Of a stretch of DNA of 64,000 bases, positions 53,078 through 63,824 are shown one piece after another. Location: NCBI GenBank assembly GCA_015057305.1, contig SVES01000006.1:1-64000 (forward strand), read 5' to 3'. The DNA is from Pseudobutyrivibrio ruminis. Lineage in GTDB: Bacteria > Bacillota > Clostridia > Lachnospirales > Lachnospiraceae. The translations under genes were made by a program, and so were the position numbers. How positions within the stretch are numbered: the first letter of the stretch is position 1; every line of letters starts with the position of its first letter. The notes under the pieces are model-generated. The model was given only the letters and a program-made list of their open reading frames with translations, searched no databases and was not told the DNA's origin.

Positions 53078-54838
53078 ATGAAAGAAATTCTAAAGCAGAT
53101 TAAAGAAGTTGTTATCTGCGGTTTTAAGGATGCTGGATATGATGAAAAATTCGCTATGGTCACTTTGTCGAATCGTCCAGATCTTTGCCAGTTTCAGTGT
53201 AATGGAGCTATGGCCGCAGCAAAGGAGTATAAAAAAGCTCCAATTGCTATTGCAAATGAGGTTGTTGAAAGGCTTGCAGATAAGGCAATTTTTTCAAAAT
53301 GCGAGGCATGTCCTCCAGGTTTTATTAATATGAATTTGTCCGATGAATTCATCGCAGGCTTTGTTTCTGAAATGGCTGAGGACACAGAACGCTTTGGAGT
53401 AGACAAGGTTGCTTCACCTAAGAAGATAATGATTGACTACGGCGGACCAAATGTTGCCAAGCCACTTCACGTTGGACATCTTCGTTCGGCTATTATTGGT
53501 GAATCTATTAAGCGTACAGCCAGATTTATGGGTGATGAGGTTATCGGTGATGTGCATCTTGGAGACTGGGGTCTTCAGATGGGACTTATTATTACAGAAT
53601 TAAAGCTTCGTAAGCCTGAGCTTTGCTATTTTGATGAAAATTATGATGGTGATTATCCTACCGAACCACCATTTACTATTTCAGAGCTTGAGGAAATATA
53701 TCCATGTGCTTCTGGAAAGTCAAAGGAGGATGAGGCTTATAAAGAGGCCGCTATGACAGCTACCTATGAGCTTCAGCATGGAAGAAGAGGTTATCAGGCA
53801 CTTCTTACACATATTCTTAATGTTTCAGTTAATGACCTTAAGCGTAACTACGAAAAGCTTGATGTTACCTTTGACCTTTGGAAGGGTGAAAGTGATGCTC
53901 AGCCTTATATCCCTGATATGGTTCAGAAGATGAAGGATGATGGCTTTGCCTATATTTCTGAGGGTGCTCTTGTAGTTGATGTTAAGGAAGATACAGATAC
54001 AAAGGAAGTACCACCATGTATGATTCTAAAGTCAGATGGTGCATCACTATACAATACTACAGATCTTGCCACTATGGTTTGGAGAATGAAGGACTACAAT
54101 CCTGATTCTATTGTTTATGTAGTAGATAAGCGCCAGGAGCTTTACTTTACACAGGTATTCCGTTGCGCTAAAAAGACAGGCATCGTGCCAGCAGATAAAA
54201 ATCTTTACTTTGTAGGCTTTGGTACCATGAACGGTAAGGATGGAAAGCCATTTAAGACCCGTCAGGGTGGAGTAATGCGTCTTGAGTATCTCCTTAAAGA
54301 AGTAGAAGATAAGATGCTTGAGAAGATTAGAGAGAATGGTACAATGAATGAGGAGGATGCTCTTAAAACAGCTCAAATCGTTGGCCTTTCTGCTATAAAA
54401 TATGGAGATTTATCAAATCAGGCATCTAAGGACTATATATTTGATATAGATAGATTTACTTCTGCTGAAGGAAATACAGGTCCATACATCCTGTACACAA
54501 TTGTTAGATGTAAGTCAATTCTTGCAAAGGCAGGGGTTGATTCCTTTGAAGGAAAAATCCTTCCAGCACATTCAGATTCAGAACGTGGCTTACAGCTTGA
54601 ACTTACAAAGTTTATGGCTGCTCTTACAGCTGCATATGAGGATATGGCTCCTCACAAGATATGTGCATACATTTACGATTTGGCAAATGCTTTTAACAGA
54701 TTCTACCATGATACAAAGATATTAGCTGAGGAGGATGAAGCCCTAAAGGCTAGTTACTTGAAGTTATTATGGCTCACTCGTAACGTCCTTGAGAAGTCAA
54801 TTGACCTTCTTGGCTTTAAAGCACCGGAGCGTATGTAA
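53078..54838 (+). CDS. argS: Arginyl-tRNA synthetase
   Basis: Charges tRNA-Arg. 586 residues. The N-terminal Add1 domain is followed by the class I HIGH motif as HVGH (residues 131-134, VAKPLHVGHLRSA). The KMSKS position is occupied by GKPFKTRQGG, as in many ArgS enzymes. The C-terminal anticodon-binding domain ends LDLLGFKAPERM. GGAGG precedes the ATG. The stop overlaps the next start (TAATG), beginning a chain of overlapping genes to 59601. Confidence 0.97.
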   Translation: MKEILKQIKEVVICGFKDAGYDEKFAMVTLSNRPDLCQFQCNGAMAAAKEYKKAPIAIANEVVERLADKAIFSKCEACPPGFINMNLSDEFIAGFVSEMAEDTERFGVDKVASPKKIMIDYGGPNVAKPLHVGHLRSAIIGESIKRTARFMGDEVIGDVHLGDWGLQMGLIITELKLRKPELCYFDENYDGDYPTEPPFTISELEEIYPCASGKSKEDEAYKEAAMTATYELQHGRRGYQALLTHILNVSVNDLKRNYEKLDVTFDLWKGESDAQPYIPDMVQKMKDDGFAYISEGALVVDVKEDTDTKEVPPCMILKSDGASLYNTTDLATMVWRMKDYNPDSIVYVVDKRQELYFTQVFRCAKKTGIVPADKNLYFVGFGTMNGKDGKPFKTRQGGVMRLEYLLKEVEDKMLEKIRENGTMNEEDALKTAQIVGLSAIKYGDLSNQASKDYIFDIDRFTSAEGNTGPYILYTIVRCKSILAKAGVDSFEGKILPAHSDSERGLQLELTKFMAALTAAYEDMAPHKICAYIYDLANAFNRFYHDTKILAEEDEALKASYLKLLWLTRNVLEKSIDLLGFKAPERM

Positions 54839-56175
54839 TGAGTGATAATTCATTTTTACCAATTGATTTTATTAATCGCATGGAACAGGACTTAGGTCCT
54901 GATTTCCATGCGTTTTTGCGTTCATTTGACGAAAACAAGATTTCTGCTCTTAGATTTAATCCAATTAAAGCAGATGAAAAAGCAAAAGCAGCTATTGAAT
55001 ATATGTTAGAAGGCTCTGTAGAGTGGAGCCCAAATGGCTATTATTATAATGACAATGAAAGACCTGGAATTCATCCATATCATGCAGCGGGAGTATATTA
55101 TATTCAGGATGCATCGGCTCAGCTGCCAGTGGAGATGCTGTCGCCTAAGCCTGGGGATATATGCCTGGACCTTTGCGCAGCACCTGGTGGCAAGAGTACT
55201 CAGATTGCTGGATATTTAGAGGGGAAAGGCGTTCTCATTTCAAATGAACCAGTCAAGAATCGAGCTAAGATTCTATCTGAAAATATTGAGCGATTGGGAA
55301 TAAGAAATTGCATTGTTACAAGTGAATATCCAGATAAATTGGCTGAGAATTTCTACGAGTATTTTGATAAAATAATGGTTGATGCTCCCTGCTCTGGTGA
55401 GGGTATGTTTAGAAAGAACCATGATGCTTGTAAAGAGTGGTCACTTGAAGCAGTTCAGGCATGTGCTGCCAGACAGGCAGAAATCCTTGATAGAGCCTAT
55501 GAAATGCTTATTCCAGGAGGCAGAATATGCTATAGTACCTGCACCTTTTCTAGGCTAGAAGATGAAGAAGCTGTTGCAGCATTTGTTGCTAAGCATCCAG
55601 ATATGCGCCTGGTTCAGGAGCGCAGATTATGGCCTCATGAGGTAAAGGGAGAGGGACATTATGCCTGCCTTCTTGAAAAGGCTGATATAGACAATAGAAG
55701 CCAGGAACTTAGAAAAGAAAGAAAGCATTATAGCCTTAAACGGATTAATGATAATCTATTAATAAACTACTCATTATTTTTGAAGGATACTTTAAATAAC
55801 ACTAAAGGCTGGAAGGATAATTTGCTGCTTATTAATGATTTACTTTATATGTTGCCAGATGAATGCCCTGACTTTCAGGGGCTTCATGTGCTTAGAGGAG
55901 GCTTGTTCCTTGGTACATTAAAAAAGAATCGATTTGAGCCTAGTCATGCCCTTGCGTTGGCATTGAATAAAGACGAAGTCAAGCATTACATTTCATTTGG
56001 TGCTAATAGTAAGGAACTTAACGATTATCTACTTGGACAGTCACTTCGTAAAGACGATATTTCAGATGGTTGGACTCTAATTAACGTGGACGATTATTCA
56101 CTTGGATGGGGAAAGGCTGTTAAGGGACAAATCAAAAATCATTATCCTAAGGGGTTAAGAAGATATGATGCATAA
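54838..56175 (+). CDS. rRNA cytosine-C5 methyltransferase, RsmF/NOL1-NOP2-Sun type
   Basis: SAM-dependent enzyme that makes m5C in rRNA. 445 residues. The SAM motif is LDLCAAPGGKSTQIA (about residues 109-123); the two family cysteines lie in VDAPCSGEGMFRK and CYSTCTFS. The GEGMFRKNHDA form and a C-terminal RNA-binding extension match the RsmF group common in Firmicutes. It overlaps argS by one base and the YitT gene by 11 bp. Confidence 0.93.
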   Translation: MSDNSFLPIDFINRMEQDLGPDFHAFLRSFDENKISALRFNPIKADEKAKAAIEYMLEGSVEWSPNGYYYNDNERPGIHPYHAAGVYYIQDASAQLPVEMLSPKPGDICLDLCAAPGGKSTQIAGYLEGKGVLISNEPVKNRAKILSENIERLGIRNCIVTSEYPDKLAENFYEYFDKIMVDAPCSGEGMFRKNHDACKEWSLEAVQACAARQAEILDRAYEMLIPGGRICYSTCTFSRLEDEEAVAAFVAKHPDMRLVQERRLWPHEVKGEGHYACLLEKADIDNRSQELRKERKHYSLKRINDNLLINYSLFLKDTLNNTKGWKDNLLLINDLLYMLPDECPDFQGLHVLRGGLFLGTLKKNRFEPSHALALALNKDEVKHYISFGANSKELNDYLLGQSLRKDDISDGWTLINVDDYSLGWGKAVKGQIKNHYPKGLRRYDA

Positions 56176-57031
56176 AATATATAAGTACAAACAGGAAATA
56201 TACGAATATATAATGTTTACCATTGCAAGCGCTATGATGGTGATAGGAATATACTTTTTTAAGTTTCCCAACCATTTTTCCTTTGGTGGCGTTAGTGGTA
56301 TTTCCATTGTTTTAGCTCAGGTTTTGCCACATACTCCAGGTAGTATTAATCTGATGATTAATATTGTACTTTTATTAATAGGTTTTGCAGTGTTTGGCAA
56401 GGAATTTGGAATTAAGACCACATATATCACATTGCTTGTTTCCTTTGGACCAAAGGTTTTAGAGCATTATTTTCCGATGGATGGTCCACTTACAAACGAG
56501 CCTGTTCTTGAGCTTATGTTTGCAATTGCCCTTCCTGCCTTTGCTTCTGCTGTGTTCTTTAATTTAGGTGCATCCAGTGGTGGAACGGATATTGTGGCAA
56601 TGGTTTTAAAGAAGTATACAAAGGTGGATATCGGAACTGCATTATTTATGTCGGATGTTATTATTGTCATTTTGGCATGTCTTGTTTTCAATGTGCAGAC
56701 TGGTCTATTTTCTTTGGTAGGACTTTTGGCTAAATCTTTAGTTGTTGATGAGACTATTGAAAATATTAATCTAGCTAAATATTTTACAATTATTTGCAAT
56801 GACCCTGAACCTATAGTGAAATATATAATGAATGATTTAGGAAAAGGGGCAACAGTATACAAGGCTGAGGGAGCATACGGTCATCAGGAAAAAACTGTTA
56901 TATTAACAATACTAAAGCGACAGCAGGCTGTAGAGCTTAAGAATTTTATCAGGCGTAATCAGCCAGGGGCGTTTATTGCAATTACTAATAGTAGTGAAAT
57001 AATCGGAAAAGGATTTAGAGGGTACAACTAG
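56165..57031 (+). CDS. YitT family membrane protein (DUF161/DUF2179)
   Basis: 288 residues: five to six membrane helices (including IYFFKFPNHFSFGGVSGISIVL and the FNLGASSGGTDIVAMVLKKYT signature), then a C-terminal cytoplasmic DUF2179 domain (GAYGHQEKTVILTILKRQQ). The function of the family is unknown. It starts inside the methyltransferase gene and its TAG overlaps the GTG of the next gene. Confidence 0.92.
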   Translation: MMHKIYKYKQEIYEYIMFTIASAMMVIGIYFFKFPNHFSFGGVSGISIVLAQVLPHTPGSINLMINIVLLLIGFAVFGKEFGIKTTYITLLVSFGPKVLEHYFPMDGPLTNEPVLELMFAIALPAFASAVFFNLGASSGGTDIVAMVLKKYTKVDIGTALFMSDVIIVILACLVFNVQTGLFSLVGLLAKSLVVDETIENINLAKYFTIICNDPEPIVKYIMNDLGKGATVYKAEGAYGHQEKTVILTILKRQQAVELKNFIRRNQPGAFIAITNSSEIIGKGFRGYN

Positions 57032-59601
57032 TGAATACAACTTGGGGAATTCTTGCACATGTTGATGCAGGCAAGACTACACTTTCAGAAGCAATATTAT
57101 ATAACGCTGGTATTTTGGCGGACCTTGGTCGAGTAGACAAGGGGTCCGCCTTTTTGGATACGGATCAGCAGGAAAAAAATAGAGGTATTACAATATTTTC
57201 AAAGCCAGCAGTCTTTGAGTATCAGGGTACGAAATTGACATTATTAGATACACCGGGGCATGTGGATTTTGCCACAGAAACGGAAAGAGCTATTTGGGTA
57301 CTTGACTTTGCTATATTGCTGATTAGTGGCACAGATGGAGTACAGGCTCATACAAAGACAATTTTTAACCTTCTTGTAAAAAACAAGGTTCCAACAATTA
57401 TTTTTATAAATAAGGCAGATATGGCTGGTTTCAATGAATCAGAGGTTTTGTCAGATTTAAAAGCAAAAATTAGTAGCGCCTGCCATCCTATTGATAATTA
57501 TGAAGATATAGCATTGGAAGATGAAGGGGCAATGGAGGAGTATCTTGATAAGGGTACACTTCATAATTATCGTATTTACGATATGATTATGTCTTGCAAA
57601 CTTTTTCCAGTTTTGAAAGGCTCAGCCCTTAAAAATGAGGGCATAGAGGAATTGCTTAATCTTATAAAGGGCTTAAGTGAATATTATGCCAGCAAAAAGC
57701 AAGCTGCATTTGAAGCAGCTTTTGGAGCAAGGGTATATAAGATTGAAAGTCTGGGTAGGGACGCTAGACTTACATTCATAAAGCTTACTTCTGGAAAAAT
57801 CAAGGTAAAGGATTCTATTTTAGAGGGAGAAAAAATAGATCAGATAAGAGTGTATTCAGGCTCAAAGTTTTCCCAAATAGATGAAGCGAAGGCAGGAGAT
57901 ATTGTAGCTTTAGTAGGACCGAAGACTACCTTTGTAGGACAAGGGCTAGGAACAGAGCATGATCGAAGTGAATTAAGCATTACACCAGTCTTAAAGTATA
58001 AGCTAGAATTCTTAGATACAACAGTTCCACGCCTTGCGTACCCTAAGCTTAAGGCATTTAATGATGAAGATGCATCCTTGAATGTTAGCTGGGATGAAAA
58101 ATTGGAAGAAATCCATTTTAATCTTATGGGGGAAGTTCAGACCGATATAATTCTTAATAGAATGAAAACTGAACTAGGGATTGAAGCTAGATTTGTTGAA
58201 GCTGGAGTTTTATACAAAGAGACAATAAAGGATAAGGTGGAGGGAGTAGGTCATTTTGAACCTTTAAGACATTATGCTGAAGTTCATTTGCTTATGGAAC
58301 CTGGCGAAAGGGGCAAAGGAATAGAAGTAGAATCGGATGTTCCAGTAGACGAATTGGCTCTTAATTGGCAAAGATTGATTACTACTCATATACTAGAAAA
58401 AGAACATATTGGAATAGCTTTGGGTGCTCCACTGACAGATATAAAATTTACAATTGTAGGGGGACGAGCTCATATCAAACATACAGAAGGCGGAGATTTT
58501 AGAGAAGCCACATATAGAGCAATAAGACAGGGCTTGATGGAAATAGGTACAGAAATATTAGAGCCCTTCTATGATTTTGAAATATCCGTGCCAGCGGAGC
58601 AAATTGGTCGAGTTATGACAGATATTGAAAATATGTCAGGTACTTTTAATGCTCCTGAGGATAGGAATGGGGAAGCAGTAATTACTGGAAGCGCACCTGC
58701 GGTTAATATACGTAATTACCAGTCTAGCCTTGTTACCTTCACAAAAGGCTTGGGTAGAATTACACTAGGAAATACTCATTATGAACTGTGTAAGAATCAA
58801 GAGGAAATAATTGAAGCTGTAGGCTATAACCCAGAGGCTGATATTGAAAATACTGGTGATTCGGTGTTCTGTTCCCATGGTGCAGGTGATACCATCCCTT
58901 GGGATGAGGTGAAAAGCAAATGCCATGTGCCATGTATAGAAATGGAAAATAACTTATCTATAAATGAAGACATCACTGCTAATTTAAAGAGGATGAATCA
59001 TGGTGTGGATGAATGGCTTGATGTAGATGAAATAGATGAGATTTTGAGAAAAGCAACCCATAGCAATTTTGGAAAAAATTCTAAAAAAGGCTGGCATTAT
59101 GGTGAAAATAGACCTGTAAGAAAAACTGATTCAGACTATATTTACCATGCGCCAAAGGAAGTAAAGCCAAAAGAGAAATACCTGTTAGTTGATGGCTATA
59201 ATTTGATTTATGCATGGCCTGAATTAAAAGAAGTGTTAGATGTTAATTTAGATGGAGCCAGAGGAAAGCTTCTTGATATCCTTAGCAATTATAAGGCTAT
59301 GACAGATTATAATGTTATTGCTGTATTTGATGCCTATAAGGTAAAAGGCCATGAGGTTACAGCATCAGACTATTTAAATATTCATCAAATCTTTACTGCA
59401 GAGGCTCAGACGGCAGATGCTTACATAGAGCGATTTACCCACGAACATGGGAAAAAATACGATATCACAGTAGTCACATCGGATGGATTGGAGCAAATCA
59501 TTATTAGGGGTGCAGGGGCAAAGCTTATGTCCTCAAGAGAGTTTATTGAGGATGTAGAGCGAAGGGCAAAAGAGCTTAGAGAACAATTTGATATTAAATA
59601 A
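57031..59601 (+). CDS. TetM-like ribosomal GTPase fused to a Rae1/YacP NYN nuclease domain
   Basis: 856 residues. The first about 650 are a ribosomal-protection-type GTPase: G1 AHVDAGKTT (residues 8-16), G2 RGITI, G3 DTPGHVDF, G4 NKAD, then EF-G-like domains with GGRAHIKHTEGGDFREATYRA. A linker of roughly 60 residues leads to an NYN domain (about 714-856) with LLVDGYNLIYAWPELK, VFDAYKVKG, TADAYIERF and VVTSDGLEQ; all resemble Rae1 (YacP), which cuts mRNA in the ribosomal A site. The conserved Asp residues are present. Start GTG at 57031 overlaps the YitT stop. Drug resistance cannot be assumed; a role in ribosome rescue or mRNA cleavage is inference. Confidence 0.9.
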   Translation: MNTTWGILAHVDAGKTTLSEAILYNAGILADLGRVDKGSAFLDTDQQEKNRGITIFSKPAVFEYQGTKLTLLDTPGHVDFATETERAIWVLDFAILLISGTDGVQAHTKTIFNLLVKNKVPTIIFINKADMAGFNESEVLSDLKAKISSACHPIDNYEDIALEDEGAMEEYLDKGTLHNYRIYDMIMSCKLFPVLKGSALKNEGIEELLNLIKGLSEYYASKKQAAFEAAFGARVYKIESLGRDARLTFIKLTSGKIKVKDSILEGEKIDQIRVYSGSKFSQIDEAKAGDIVALVGPKTTFVGQGLGTEHDRSELSITPVLKYKLEFLDTTVPRLAYPKLKAFNDEDASLNVSWDEKLEEIHFNLMGEVQTDIILNRMKTELGIEARFVEAGVLYKETIKDKVEGVGHFEPLRHYAEVHLLMEPGERGKGIEVESDVPVDELALNWQRLITTHILEKEHIGIALGAPLTDIKFTIVGGRAHIKHTEGGDFREATYRAIRQGLMEIGTEILEPFYDFEISVPAEQIGRVMTDIENMSGTFNAPEDRNGEAVITGSAPAVNIRNYQSSLVTFTKGLGRITLGNTHYELCKNQEEIIEAVGYNPEADIENTGDSVFCSHGAGDTIPWDEVKSKCHVPCIEMENNLSINEDITANLKRMNHGVDEWLDVDEIDEILRKATHSNFGKNSKKGWHYGENRPVRKTDSDYIYHAPKEVKPKEKYLLVDGYNLIYAWPELKEVLDVNLDGARGKLLDILSNYKAMTDYNVIAVFDAYKVKGHEVTASDYLNIHQIFTAEAQTADAYIERFTHEHGKKYDITVVTSDGLEQIIIRGAGAKLMSSREFIEDVERRAKELREQFDIK

Positions 59602-59700: not shown

Positions 59701-61869
59701 ATGGATAAATATCAATTCGGGGATTTAGAAAGAAAAGTATTAGAAGGGTTAAACATTCCAATGGCAATCTACCAATTAGTAGATAAAAGGGTTGTCACAT
59801 TATTGGTAACAGACGGTCTATGTAGATCCCTTGGAATGAAAAGAAAGGATGCAATAAAGCTTTTAGACAATGACATGTATCGAGATACTCATCCAGATGA
59901 TAAAGCAAGAGTGGCAGATGCTGCATACAAGTTTGCATCAGGTGGGGAATCATTTGATTGTGTCTATAGAACTCTTTCACATTCCTTAGGTGACTATATA
60001 ATAGTACATTCTCATGGGGAACATTTTGTTACTCCGGATGGTTCAATGCTTTCTAGTACTGTATACATGCTTGAAGGAACTGGAGATAATTTTGAAAACC
60101 CGTTGACAGAAAGACTTGCCTCAAACTTTAAGGAAATGATGTCAAAGGAAAGTTTAATAAGAGATAATTTTTATGACACTTTGACAGGTTTACCTAATAT
60201 GTCATATTTTTTACAGCTGGCGGATGCAGGTAAGGATGCAATATATAGTAAAGGCAACACACCAGGCATTGTATTTTTTGATATGACTGGTATGAAATAT
60301 TTTAATGAAAAACATGGATTGAAAGAGGGGGATAATTTACTAATTTCTTTTAGTATGATTCTAAAAAAATATTTTCCTAATGAAAACTGTGGAAGGATGG
60401 GACAGGATCACTTTGCGGTTTTCACTGAAATGGAAGGCATTGAAGAAATTTTAGAGGATATATTTGAAGATATAAAATTCGCCAATGAGGGCAAGACTCT
60501 TCCTGTCCATGTAGGTATTTATTCAATGGCATTTGAGAATGTTTCTGCCAGCAGTGCTTGTGATAGGGCAAAAATTGCCAGTGACAAGGAAAAGGGTGCT
60601 TATATCTCAAAGTTTTCTTATTATGACGAGAATACTCATGCCGTTGCAACCCATTTTGAATATGTAATCAACAATTTTGAAAAGGCAATGGCAGAGGGTT
60701 GGATTAGACCATACTATCAACAGCTTGTAAGAACCGTAAATGGATACGTCTGCGATGAGGAGGCTTTGGCTCGTTGGATTGATCCTGTAAAAGGCCTGAT
60801 TCCGCCGAATCATTTTATATATGTGCTAGAAGATTCAAAGCTTATACATAAATTAGATTTGTTTATTTTGGATTGTGTTTTAAGGGATATGCAAGAGGTA
60901 GACGAAAAGGGCTTACCTTTGGTGCCGGTATCGATCAATTTATCTAAATATGATTTTGAGCTTTGTGATGTTGTTGAGGAAATCAAAAAGAGAGTAAATG
61001 CTTCAACAATTTCACCTGAGATGATTACCATCGAAATAACTGAAAGTGTGTCCAGCTTGGATTCTGATTTTGTGGCAACACAGATTAGACGGTTTCATGA
61101 CGCTGGATTTAAAGTATGGATGGATGATTTTGGAAGTGGTTATTCATCTTTAAATATGCTTCAAAAATTTGACTTCGATTTAATTAAATTTGATATGAAA
61201 TTCATGCGTGAATTCAATCTGTCGAAGAAGAATCACATAATTTTAAAAGAGCTTATTCAGATGACAACCAAGCTGGGTATAGATACGGTCGTAGAGGGTG
61301 TTGAGACCATTGAGCAGGTGAAATTTTTGCGTGAAATTGGTTGCAGTAAAATGCAGGGCTATTATTTTTCAAAGCCAATACCTCTTGAAGAATGGTATGC
61401 AATTCGAGAAGCCAAGGTAGGAAATAGAATAGAGAATAACTTTGAATACGAATATTACGATTCAATAACTAAGACAAACATTGTTGAGCCACTTGTAAAC
61501 GAGGAATATAACTGGGAATCTAATGACTTTTTTGGTCAAATACCTACAGGAATTCTTGAAATCAGGGATGATGATGTTTACGTAATGCGATATAACAGAA
61601 ACTTTGCCAGTTTCCTACTTAAGGCAGGATTTATAGATGAAGTGGATTTAGGCAATGAGCTTATAAAGCAAAAAAGAAATCCTTCAAGTAACTTTTTTAA
61701 GGTTGCACTAAATTGTAAGGAATTTAATAAGTGGGAAATTATTGAAAATGTGGAGGAGGAAGGTCTTTTAATTAATCTATTTATTAAAAAGATATGCCAA
61801 AATCCAATTACAAAGCATGTTGCCTTTGAAATAGCAATAATGTCAATAAGTAGTAAAAATGGCTCTTAA
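59701..61869 (+). CDS. PAS-GGDEF-EAL signalling protein, probable c-di-GMP phosphodiesterase
   Basis: Cytoplasmic, 722 residues. A PAS-like sensor (about 10-125) is followed by a GGDEF domain (about 155-310) whose signature is degenerate: GQDHF in place of GGDEF. The EAL domain (about 325-575) is intact with EALARW, NLSKYDF, ITIEITES, DDFGSGYSSL and VEGVET. So degradation of c-di-GMP is likely and synthesis unlikely; the GGDEF part may bind GTP as a regulator. A further about 140 residues end in a PAS-like region. No partner is encoded nearby. The gene stands alone between terminator and promoter. Confidence 0.92.
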   Translation: MDKYQFGDLERKVLEGLNIPMAIYQLVDKRVVTLLVTDGLCRSLGMKRKDAIKLLDNDMYRDTHPDDKARVADAAYKFASGGESFDCVYRTLSHSLGDYIIVHSHGEHFVTPDGSMLSSTVYMLEGTGDNFENPLTERLASNFKEMMSKESLIRDNFYDTLTGLPNMSYFLQLADAGKDAIYSKGNTPGIVFFDMTGMKYFNEKHGLKEGDNLLISFSMILKKYFPNENCGRMGQDHFAVFTEMEGIEEILEDIFEDIKFANEGKTLPVHVGIYSMAFENVSASSACDRAKIASDKEKGAYISKFSYYDENTHAVATHFEYVINNFEKAMAEGWIRPYYQQLVRTVNGYVCDEEALARWIDPVKGLIPPNHFIYVLEDSKLIHKLDLFILDCVLRDMQEVDEKGLPLVPVSINLSKYDFELCDVVEEIKKRVNASTISPEMITIEITESVSSLDSDFVATQIRRFHDAGFKVWMDDFGSGYSSLNMLQKFDFDLIKFDMKFMREFNLSKKNHIILKELIQMTTKLGIDTVVEGVETIEQVKFLREIGCSKMQGYYFSKPIPLEEWYAIREAKVGNRIENNFEYEYYDSITKTNIVEPLVNEEYNWESNDFFGQIPTGILEIRDDDVYVMRYNRNFASFLLKAGFIDEVDLGNELIKQKRNPSSNFFKVALNCKEFNKWEIIENVEEEGLLINLFIKKICQNPITKHVAFEIAIMSISSKNGS

Positions 61870-62246: not shown

Positions 62247-63824
62247 ATGAGAAAGAGATTACTTACTAGTATGGCACTTATGTTAGGTTTTGCATTGACA
62301 TTTACAGCTTGTGGTAATAATGCTGAACCAGTGGAGGAAAGTGCTACTGAAGCTGTTGAGGAGGTAGATGACCAGGTGGCAGCAGATAATGTTGCAGCTT
62401 TGATTGATGCTATCTATGTTCAAGAGAGGACAGATGAAACTGATGCTCAGTGTACAGCTGCTAAGGAAGCTTGGGACGCATTAACTGACACACAAAAAGA
62501 GTTGGTTGAGGGCGAGTACGCAGATCCAGATTATTTCGGTAGGGATACTGGTGATGCATCTAAGGACGATCCTTTAAATCAAGATGAAATAGGTGAAAAC
62601 GAAATTTTAGTAGTAAGCTTTGGAACATCCTTCAATGATAGCCGTGTTGCTGATATTGGTGGAGTAGAAAAGGCTATTGCCGCAGCTTATCCAGATTGGT
62701 CTGTAAGACGTGCATTTACATCACAGATAATCATCAATCATATTCAGGCACGTGATGATGAAAAGATTGATAATGTTGAGCAGGCTTTAGATAGAGCTGT
62801 AGCAAATGGGGTGAAAAATTTGGTTGTGCAGCCAACTCACTTAATGCATGGCGCTGAGTATGATGATTTGGTTGCAGCTGTAGAGGAGTATTCAGATAAA
62901 TTTGAATCAGTAAAGATTGCTGAGCCACTTCTTGGACAGGTTGGAGCAGATGCTAGTGAGATTAATAGCGATAAAGAAAATGTTGCTAAGGCTATTGTAA
63001 CTGAGGCTGTATCTGATGCAGGACTTGCGAGCCTTGATAAAGCCGAAGAGGATGGTACAGCATTTGTATTCATGGGACATGGTACAAGCCACAATGCAAA
63101 GGTTACCTACAGCCAGATGCAGACACAGATGGATGAGCTTGGATACAAGAATGTATTTATCGGTACTGTTGAGGGTGAGCCAGAGGAAACCTCGGTAGAG
63201 AATATTATTGCAGCTGTAAAGGATGCAGGCTACACAAAGGTTGTTCTTCGTCCGCTTATGGTAGTTGCGGGTGACCATGCAAACAACGATATGGCAGGTG
63301 ATGAAGATGATTCTTGGAAGTCTATGTTTGAAGCAGATGGATCATTTGAATCTGTAGAGTGCCAGATAGCTGGTCTTGGAGAGATTGCTGATGTTCAGGC
63401 TATATATGTGGCCCACACATCTGATGCTACAGGTGTTACCCCTACTGAAACTGCTAATACAGATGAGCTTAAGGAGGGTGAGACCTATCTTGCCAATTTC
63501 ACAACAGATAGCAGTATGTTTCATGTAAATGAAGCAGAAAACGGCAAGGGCGAGCTTACATTAAAGGATGGCAAGATGACAATACATGTTTCCCTCGTTT
63601 CAGACAAGATTGTCAACCTTTATGTAGGTAAGGCTGCTGATGCTGAAGGTGATGAAGCTAACTGGCTTCAGCCTACAAAGGATGAGGTTACATACTCAGA
63701 CGGAACAACAGAAACAGTAAATGGTTTCGACATTCCTGTAGAGGCACTTGGAGAAGATTTTGATTTGGCAATATTAGGTGAAAAGGGTACCTGGTACGAC
63801 CATGTGGTATCTGTAACATTATAA
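62247..63824 (+). CDS. Exported CbiK-like cobaltochelatase lipoprotein
   Basis: 525 residues. A signal peptide ends in the lipobox FTAC (Cys22), then an acidic linker. The core (about 115-390) is the anaerobic sirohydrochlorin cobaltochelatase fold: ILVVSFGTSFNDSR, TSQIIINHIQ, VVQPTHLMHGAEYDDL and FMGHGTSHNAKVTYSQM, with His residues suited to metal handling. The C-terminal about 120 residues (GKGELTLKDGKMTIHVSL...) form another domain related to the one in the following gene. The cobalamin riboswitch supports a role in cobalt, corrinoid or tetrapyrrole handling outside the cell. GGAGG precedes the ATG. Confidence 0.9.
   Translation: MRKRLLTSMALMLGFALTFTACGNNAEPVEESATEAVEEVDDQVAADNVAALIDAIYVQERTDETDAQCTAAKEAWDALTDTQKELVEGEYADPDYFGRDTGDASKDDPLNQDEIGENEILVVSFGTSFNDSRVADIGGVEKAIAAAYPDWSVRRAFTSQIIINHIQARDDEKIDNVEQALDRAVANGVKNLVVQPTHLMHGAEYDDLVAAVEEYSDKFESVKIAEPLLGQVGADASEINSDKENVAKAIVTEAVSDAGLASLDKAEEDGTAFVFMGHGTSHNAKVTYSQMQTQMDELGYKNVFIGTVEGEPEETSVENIIAAVKDAGYTKVVLRPLMVVAGDHANNDMAGDEDDSWKSMFEADGSFESVECQIAGLGEIADVQAIYVAHTSDATGVTPTETANTDELKEGETYLANFTTDSSMFHVNEAENGKGELTLKDGKMTIHVSLVSDKIVNLYVGKAADAEGDEANWLQPTKDEVTYSDGTTETVNGFDIPVEALGEDFDLAILGEKGTWYDHVVSVTL

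Follow-up and report, generated by a model that had tools for sequence, protein, structure and literature searches.

A GTPase–Rae1 fusion protein in Pseudobutyrivibrio ruminis and its relatives: a candidate ribosome-docked mRNA endonuclease

The fused gene and its domains

What does a GTPase of the ribosomal-protection type do on the same polypeptide as an RNA-cutting domain, and does such a protein serve antibiotic resistance or everyday translation? The question is raised by a gene at 57031..59601 (+) of the first 64,000 nucleotides of contig SVES01000006.1 from Pseudobutyrivibrio ruminis (this whole stretch is henceforth referred to as the window), which the original prediction had read as a TetM-like GTPase fused to a Rae1/YacP-like NYN nuclease domain. 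Translation of the window gave a single frame of 856 amino acids (aa) with a GTG start and without an internal stop (the span includes the stop codon), and the one frame translated from the opposite strand had stops throughout. Pfam matches and comparison with relatives divide the protein (henceforth referred to as the fusion) into a GTPase module of the elongation factor G (EF-G)/Tet type with domains G, II, III, IV and V (residues 1-590, 57031..58800), an extension (residues 591-640, 58801..58950), a linker (residues 641-712, 58951..59166) and a Rae1/YacP-type NYN nuclease domain (residues 713-856, 59167..59598), all on the forward strand.

All Pfam domains of the fusion scored above their gathering scores: GTP_EFTU at residues 4-213 (2.5e-48), followed by EF-G_D2, EFG_III, EFG_IV (393-503) and EFG_C (508-590), and finally NYN_YacP (PF05991) at 718-853 (6.1e-46; 156.9 bits against a cut-off of 24.6). 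Among solved structures the best match of the GTPase part was TetM (E 4.5e-76), which together with Pfam confirms the proposed architecture, and the sole convincing relative of the NYN part was Bacillus subtilis YacP/Rae1 (5mq8 and 5mq9, E 5e-21). The GTP-motif residues K15, T16, T54, D73, H77, N127, K128 and D130 were kept in 56/56 fused proteins. Four acidic residues of the NYN domain, D721 (59191..59193), D767 (59329..59331), D796 (59416..59418) and D818 (59482..59484), all on the forward strand, were Asp in every one of 101 fused proteins and 50 free Rae1 proteins; they also match by alignment with 5mq8, in keeping with the Rae1/YacP kinship, and are present in two divergent free NYN proteins (L222 and L224) outside the 50. 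Hence the loss of catalytic Asp residues in homologues, against which the original prediction had cautioned, was not found, and the NYN part of the fusion is, as far as conserved residues can tell, very likely an active nuclease. A strongly diverged fused member from an Erysipelotrichaceae metagenome-assembled genome (MAG; L149, 2992-5436), with ~32% identity in the GTPase part, also has all four Asp residues.

Structure prediction from a 55-row alignment (mean predicted local distance difference test score, pLDDT, 81.5; predicted template modelling score, pTM, 0.63) gave a confident GTPase module, an extension folded to about residue 640 and a mostly confident NYN domain, separated by a linker with pLDDT mostly below 50 at residues 640-710, which is accordingly predicted to be disordered; with this pTM and this linker, the prediction yields no placement of the NYN domain relative to the GTPase. 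The structural comparison covered residues 1-623, where the matches were filled by EF-G relatives, and the NYN domain was compared by sequence alone. The extension carries an S-[VI]-F-C motif and is common to fused and unfused members of the GTPase clade, with S611, F613 and G617 identical in 56/56 fused and 20/20 unfused rows, and is missing from Tet(M)-type rows. BLASTP over both regions found the same architecture in 55/55 fetched relatives. The nearest named relative is a Pseudobutyrivibrio MAG (68%). Within the genus (six comparisons) the NYN domain was the most conserved part, at 86-92% identity compared to 64-76% for the GTPase, and outside the genus the median identities were 50% for the NYN domain, 47% for the GTPase and 16% for the linker (15.9% against 49 fused proteins).

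Spread of the fusion and the empty rae1 site

In a sample of 245 genomes of the order, a genome was scored as fused if the GTPase search returned an open frame of at least 840 aa and the genome had an NYN match; counts for the order, phylum and genus samples are hand tallies of per-genome tables. The order sample contained 96 genomes with the fusion in one frame, 26 with an unfused GTPase (23 whole and 3 partial), 4 odd genomes (contig ends or broken frames) and 119 without a GTPase of this clade; an NYN_YacP match was present in 226 of the 245, and in 101 of the 119. The loci of 55 of the 96 fused genomes were fetched and both regions confirmed by BLASTP, while for the other 41 the NYN part is deduced from frame length and the NYN match in the genome. 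Within the window's own family 64/72 genomes of this sample were fused, and when one genome per genus of the family was taken 59/75 were fused, 7 had a free-size NYN gene and 9 had no NYN. In a phylum sample of 398 genomes the GTPase was present at E 1e-85 or better in 36; it was fused in 28 of these and unfused in the others, six of which had 40-44% identity and two 35-36%. Since the single-frame fusion recurs in 96/245 genomes of the order, 55 of them confirmed, it is neither a product of chance nor a mis-join. The fusion thus exists in related genomes, as the original prediction had supposed, and its presence in many assemblies disposes of the sequencing artefact that had also been considered there. 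In genome G214 (C41:19750-21527) a frameshift, real or from assembly, divides the fusion into open frames of 412 and 601 aa.

The single NYN_YacP match in the window's genome is the fusion itself. At another locus of this genome (L208) the genes follow one another as cysS, mrnC, rlmB and sigH; rae1 is absent, and 8 bases separate rlmB from sigH. Of these, cysS and RlmB pass the curated cut-offs, SigH matches below its cut-offs, and mrnC, which has no NCBIfam match, is named by place and similarity. In 12 genomes where the surroundings of free rae1 were inspected, sigH lies downstream in 10 and rlmB upstream within the inspected region in 8, and two genomes (G157 and G082) have other neighbours. 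We located 30 rlmB loci in the 75 genera of the family: in 20 of them, from the window's genome and 19 other genera, rlmB and sigH stand at most 139 nucleotides apart without Rae1, in 3 rae1 is beside rlmB, and in 7 neither sigH within reach nor Rae1 was found. Nineteen of the 20 empty sites belong to fused genomes and one (G701) to a genome without NYN, and the three genomes with rae1 beside rlmB carry a free-size NYN. By coordinates, the NYN gene also adjoins rlmB in the free-NYN genomes G659 and G688. A second NYN match occurred in only four fused or cut-fusion genomes of the order (G017, G044, G108 and G126), that of G108 being a free-size gene. Overall, we are highly confident that the fusion replaces the free rae1 of the lineage, and the fusion gene looks like rae1 relocated and joined to the C terminus of a GTPase of this clade.

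The nuclease part also differs from free Rae1 at its end. A passage of PMC6613710 lists R166P of B. subtilis Rae1 among loss-of-function suppressors, and by alignment R166 falls in the last few residues of that protein (F-E-K-W-R-R). Counted from the Ser matching S834 to the protein end, the tail has 23 residues in the window's protein, where the R165/R166 region is missing, compared to 48-55 in 50 free Rae1 proteins. Tails shorter than 40 residues were found in 38/101 fused proteins (window included) and in 0/50 free ones, and as L222 and L224 have tails of 55 and 50 residues the tail is present in 52/52 free proteins. The samples behind these counts are not random. An exact E-x-x-R motif in the tail had appeared in 30/30 free and 11/81 fused proteins of a first sample, the 30 being mostly the best-scoring matches to the Pfam model; in a control of 20 lower-ranked free Rae1 proteins it was present in 12/20, while all 20 had tails of at least 48 residues, and 20 further fused proteins (12 picked from full-length matches) comprised 12 with the motif, 3 long tails without it and 5 short tails. 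The motif was consequently taken as a weaker mark of free Rae1 and the claim reduced to presence of the tail; the final recount was 42/50 free and 23/101 fused, and on the GTPase tree the motif state requires at least 6 changes, with 5/65 fused rows not scored. The tail would serve free Rae1 for docking and may degenerate when the nuclease is carried by a GTPase that binds ribosomes, and short tails in 38/101 fused proteins are as expected if the carrier took over the docking role.

The GTPase clade, its history and its neighbourhood

We considered whether the fusion could be a tetracycline-resistance protein, as its match to TetM might suggest. It scored 398.6 bits against the Tet model NCBIfam NF012153, whose cut-off is 775, whereas three Tet controls (L120, L121 and L122) scored 825-876 bits; against the EF-G model TIGR00484 it scored 270.7 bits (cut-off 659.4). 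In a GTPase tree of 100 rows built by a quick method, fused and unfused proteins formed one clade (SH-aLRT 100) apart from six Tet-type rows. Members of this clade share a domain IV tip unlike that of TetM. In loop I (residues 405-416, GVGHFEPLRHYA, 58243..58278, +), G405, G407, H408, E410, P411, H414 and Y415 were identical in 56/56 fused and 20/20 unfused rows. Loop III (residues 481-491, HIKHTEGGDFR, 58471..58503, +) sits where TetM has S-P-V, which in the window's protein is replaced by I482-K483-H484; K483, H484, T485 and D489 were identical in 56/56 fused and 20/20 unfused rows, K-H-T being invariant in all 76, and H481, which aligns with a His of the EF-G tip, was kept in 53/56 fused and 20/20 unfused rows. 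The S-P-V of TetM domain IV loop III has a role in tetracycline displacement. Hence the GTPase, although related to TetM, is not TetM-like at its functional tip. Of the 96 fused genomes, at least 12 also have a separate Tet-type gene, and the two that were checked (G226 and G210) exceed the Tet cut-off. Judged by these scores and residues, the fusion is very probably not a Tet resistance protein.

Unfused members of the clade occur on Ligilactobacillus salivarius megaplasmids (L124, 3983-5902 of NZ_CP114510.1, and the matches H45-H54), where they are labelled TetM/TetW/TetO/TetS resistance proteins; with 380.8 bits, the copy in L124 stays below the 775 that the Tet model requires. Where unfused relatives from this clade have been annotated automatically as conferring tetracycline resistance, the annotation is probably wrong and calls for caution.

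The original prediction knew of no described function, but the fusion is already in print: one sentence of Atkinson 2015 (PMC4342817), the sole mention of it in the literature read, states that an NYN domain resembling YacP was gained by Tet proteins of ten clostridial species (Clostridiales), and proposes resistance through RNase action. These proteins have the same architecture, a GTPase with a C-terminal YacP-like NYN domain, and are almost certainly the same protein family as the fusion. That sentence files them as Tet, whereas here they form a separate clade with a non-Tet tip, are spread family-wide and replace free rae1. What the present analysis adds to that sentence is how far the fusion is spread, that its clade stands apart, that the rae1 site is empty and the tail often lost, and the case against the resistance reading.

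Within the GTPase tree, 23 unfused rows form one group (support 91), and four unfused rows fall among the fused ones, two from Bifidobacterium and one from Collinsella (starred support) and an L. salivarius plasmid copy (weak support); the fused rows L112, L116 and L118 were left at the base without resolution by the quick method. Neither Bifidobacterium genome has an NYN match and the Collinsella genome has a distant NYN elsewhere; these copies were probably acquired by transfer and then lost the nuclease. The NYN tree requires 3 changes; the fused row L112 is placed with free Rae1, and four free rows from the family fall inside the fused ones. With several long branches in that tree, an approximately unbiased (AU) test did not reject one fused clade (p 0.24). 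One fusion followed by spread and some NYN loss is the simplest story, which the NYN tree does not settle. In the order sample an NYN match was present in 26/26 genomes with an unfused GTPase compared to 101/119 without a clade GTPase (Fisher one-sided p 0.022, relatedness uncorrected, the 4 odd genomes excluded), and in the phylum sample in 4/6 clearly unfused genomes (not in G552 and G597) and 0/2 Bifidobacterium genomes. The idea that unfused GTPase and free Rae1 form a functional pair was set aside, as dependence was not shown and 2/6 phylum and 2/2 Bifidobacterium genomes are without NYN.

The gene directly upstream of the fusion (56165..57031, +) encodes a YitT-family membrane protein, and its stop overlaps the GTG start of the fusion by one base. 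Further upstream lie argS (53078-54838) and an RsmF-type methyltransferase gene (54838-56175), whose product scores below the curated cut-offs of its models. The original prediction had placed the fusion in a chain with argS and an rRNA methyltransferase gene and had taken this as a sign of a housekeeping factor; both genes are indeed present, but the YitT-family gene, unnamed there, stands between them and the fusion. In all 6 genus relatives fetched it was directly upstream, and it lay no nearer than five genes from the fusion at any of the 49 fused loci fetched from outside the genus; when the neighbours of 55 fused loci were clustered none was conserved beyond the genus, so that operon reasoning from argS was abandoned. 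As a trait of the genus, the argS-methyltransferase-YitT chain cannot carry the housekeeping argument; support for the guess itself comes from the vacant rae1 site and from the presence of the fusion across the family. Directly downstream, a GGDEF-EAL protein is encoded at 59701-61869 (+), which adjoins the fusion in 4 or 5 genus loci only, and the gene at 62247-63824 (+) encodes a CbiK cobalt-chelatase domain (PF06180, 1.9e-76) behind what, judged by eye, is a lipoprotein-like signal.

Proposed action on the ribosome and known systems

EF-G and TetM place domain IV in the A site. We propose that the GTPase module of the fusion would bind the factor site of ribosomes whose A site is open and that the conserved domain IV tip would enter the decoding region and clear or sense the A site; after GTP hydrolysis and the retreat of domain IV, the NYN domain, tethered by ~70 residues, would enter the A site and cut the mRNA, and the truncated mRNA left behind would be a case for rescue by transfer-messenger RNA (tmRNA). 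According to the literature, mRNA in the A site is the target of Rae1, whose cut can prepare tmRNA rescue (PMC12320835), and entry of Rae1 into stalled ribosomes has been proposed (PMC10100781). From these families we infer nuclease activity and A-site action for the fusion, which by the same analogy probably acts on ribosome-bound mRNA. The balance tips slightly towards a housekeeping, ribosome-docked mRNA endonuclease for mRNA turnover or ribosome rescue and away from drug resistance; the weakest part of this reading, for which we see a little better than an even chance, is that recruitment or gating of the nuclease falls to the GTPase.

Several observations weigh against it. The GTPase occurs without NYN in the unfused members, four genomes with the GTPase (G552, G597 and the two Bifidobacterium) have no NYN match at all, and it must thus have a job of its own; the Bifidobacterium and Collinsella GTPases (L140, L141 and L146) are nested in the fused clade without NYN, so that the two parts can separate. 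Two near-complete genomes of the family (G190 and G225, 2/72) have neither an NYN_YacP match nor the clade GTPase, which must be dispensable there, 63/101 fused proteins retain a tail of at least 40 residues, and in B. subtilis Rae1 functions with no GTPase of this kind attached. Moreover, one would expect domain IV and the NYN domain to compete for the A site. As structures of the two families would not lead one to expect both together in one A site, they would have to take turns or the nuclease would have to act nearby, and the linker of ~70 residues permits either.

A more specific version of the docked endonuclease is GTP gating, in which the GTPase picks the ribosome and opens the A site, the nuclease cuts, and the carrier replaces docking by the tail, hence the repeated tail decay; we hold it tentatively, at rather less than an even chance. 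If this is true, the unfused GTPase and free Rae1 in related bacteria should be able to cooperate in trans. A fusion of convenience, with an ordinary Rae1 beside a GTPase whose job is unrelated and the joining merely fixing their ratio or keeping both near ribosomes without any gating, is in our judgement unlikely though far from negligible. It would account for GTPases without NYN, even in genomes lacking any NYN match, for free Rae1 in 101/119 genomes of the order without the clade GTPase, and for a linker conserved in neither length nor sequence (16% median identity), but sits poorly with a fusion retained across many genera whose genomes have nearly always lost free rae1, and with a tail that decays in many fused proteins and in none of the 50 free ones.

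We regard the two remaining explanations as improbable. That the fusion matures rRNA or tRNA once the GTPase has delivered it to ribosomes or pre-ribosomes would revive what was earlier proposed for NYN/YacP domains, as cited by Atkinson 2015 (PMC4342817), and would suit the position of free rae1 beside mrnC and rlmB; however, those RNA-processing neighbours were lost after relocation, and PMC6613710 and PMC12320835 describe Rae1 as an A-site mRNA endonuclease. Less probable still, and by our estimate very improbable, is an antibiotic ribosome-protection protein with added RNase action. Homology to TetM and the printed suggestion in Atkinson 2015 (PMC4342817) speak for it, yet 398.6 bits is far short of 775 (L044 and L055 are also far below the Tet cut-off), the clade is separate, the S-P-V tip is replaced by I-K-H, the fusion is chromosomal and nearly universal in the family sample, and at least 12/96 fused genomes carry a Tet-type gene besides.

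The candidate ribosome-docked endonuclease can be set beside other known systems. Tet(M) and Tet(O) have the S-P-V tip of domain IV, whereas the fusion has another tip, a C-terminal extension and an NYN domain, and scores below the Tet cut-off. B. subtilis Rae1/YacP (5mq8, 5mq9) shares the NYN fold family and the four Asp residues with it; free Rae1 is a protein of the 170-aa type encoded near rlmB and sigH and ending in a C-terminal tail, while in the fusion it is joined to a GTPase, moved, and missing the tail. How Rae1 chooses ribosomes for mRNA cutting could be approached directly through this covalent link, by mutation of the GTPase. In many gut-type Clostridia, mRNA cleavage on ribosomes may be coupled to a ribosome-binding motor driven by GTP. 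In eukaryotes, Hbs1/Ski7, with Dom34, Cue2 or the exosome, are translational GTPase relatives that couple stalled ribosomes to an RNase. They offer a parallel in how such a system works, although there the proteins are separate and the GTPase belongs to the EF1A branch, whereas the fusion joins a GTPase of the EF-G branch covalently to its nuclease; were GTP gating to hold, the fusion would be a one-polypeptide bacterial counterpart of eukaryotic GTPase-plus-nuclease mRNA surveillance.

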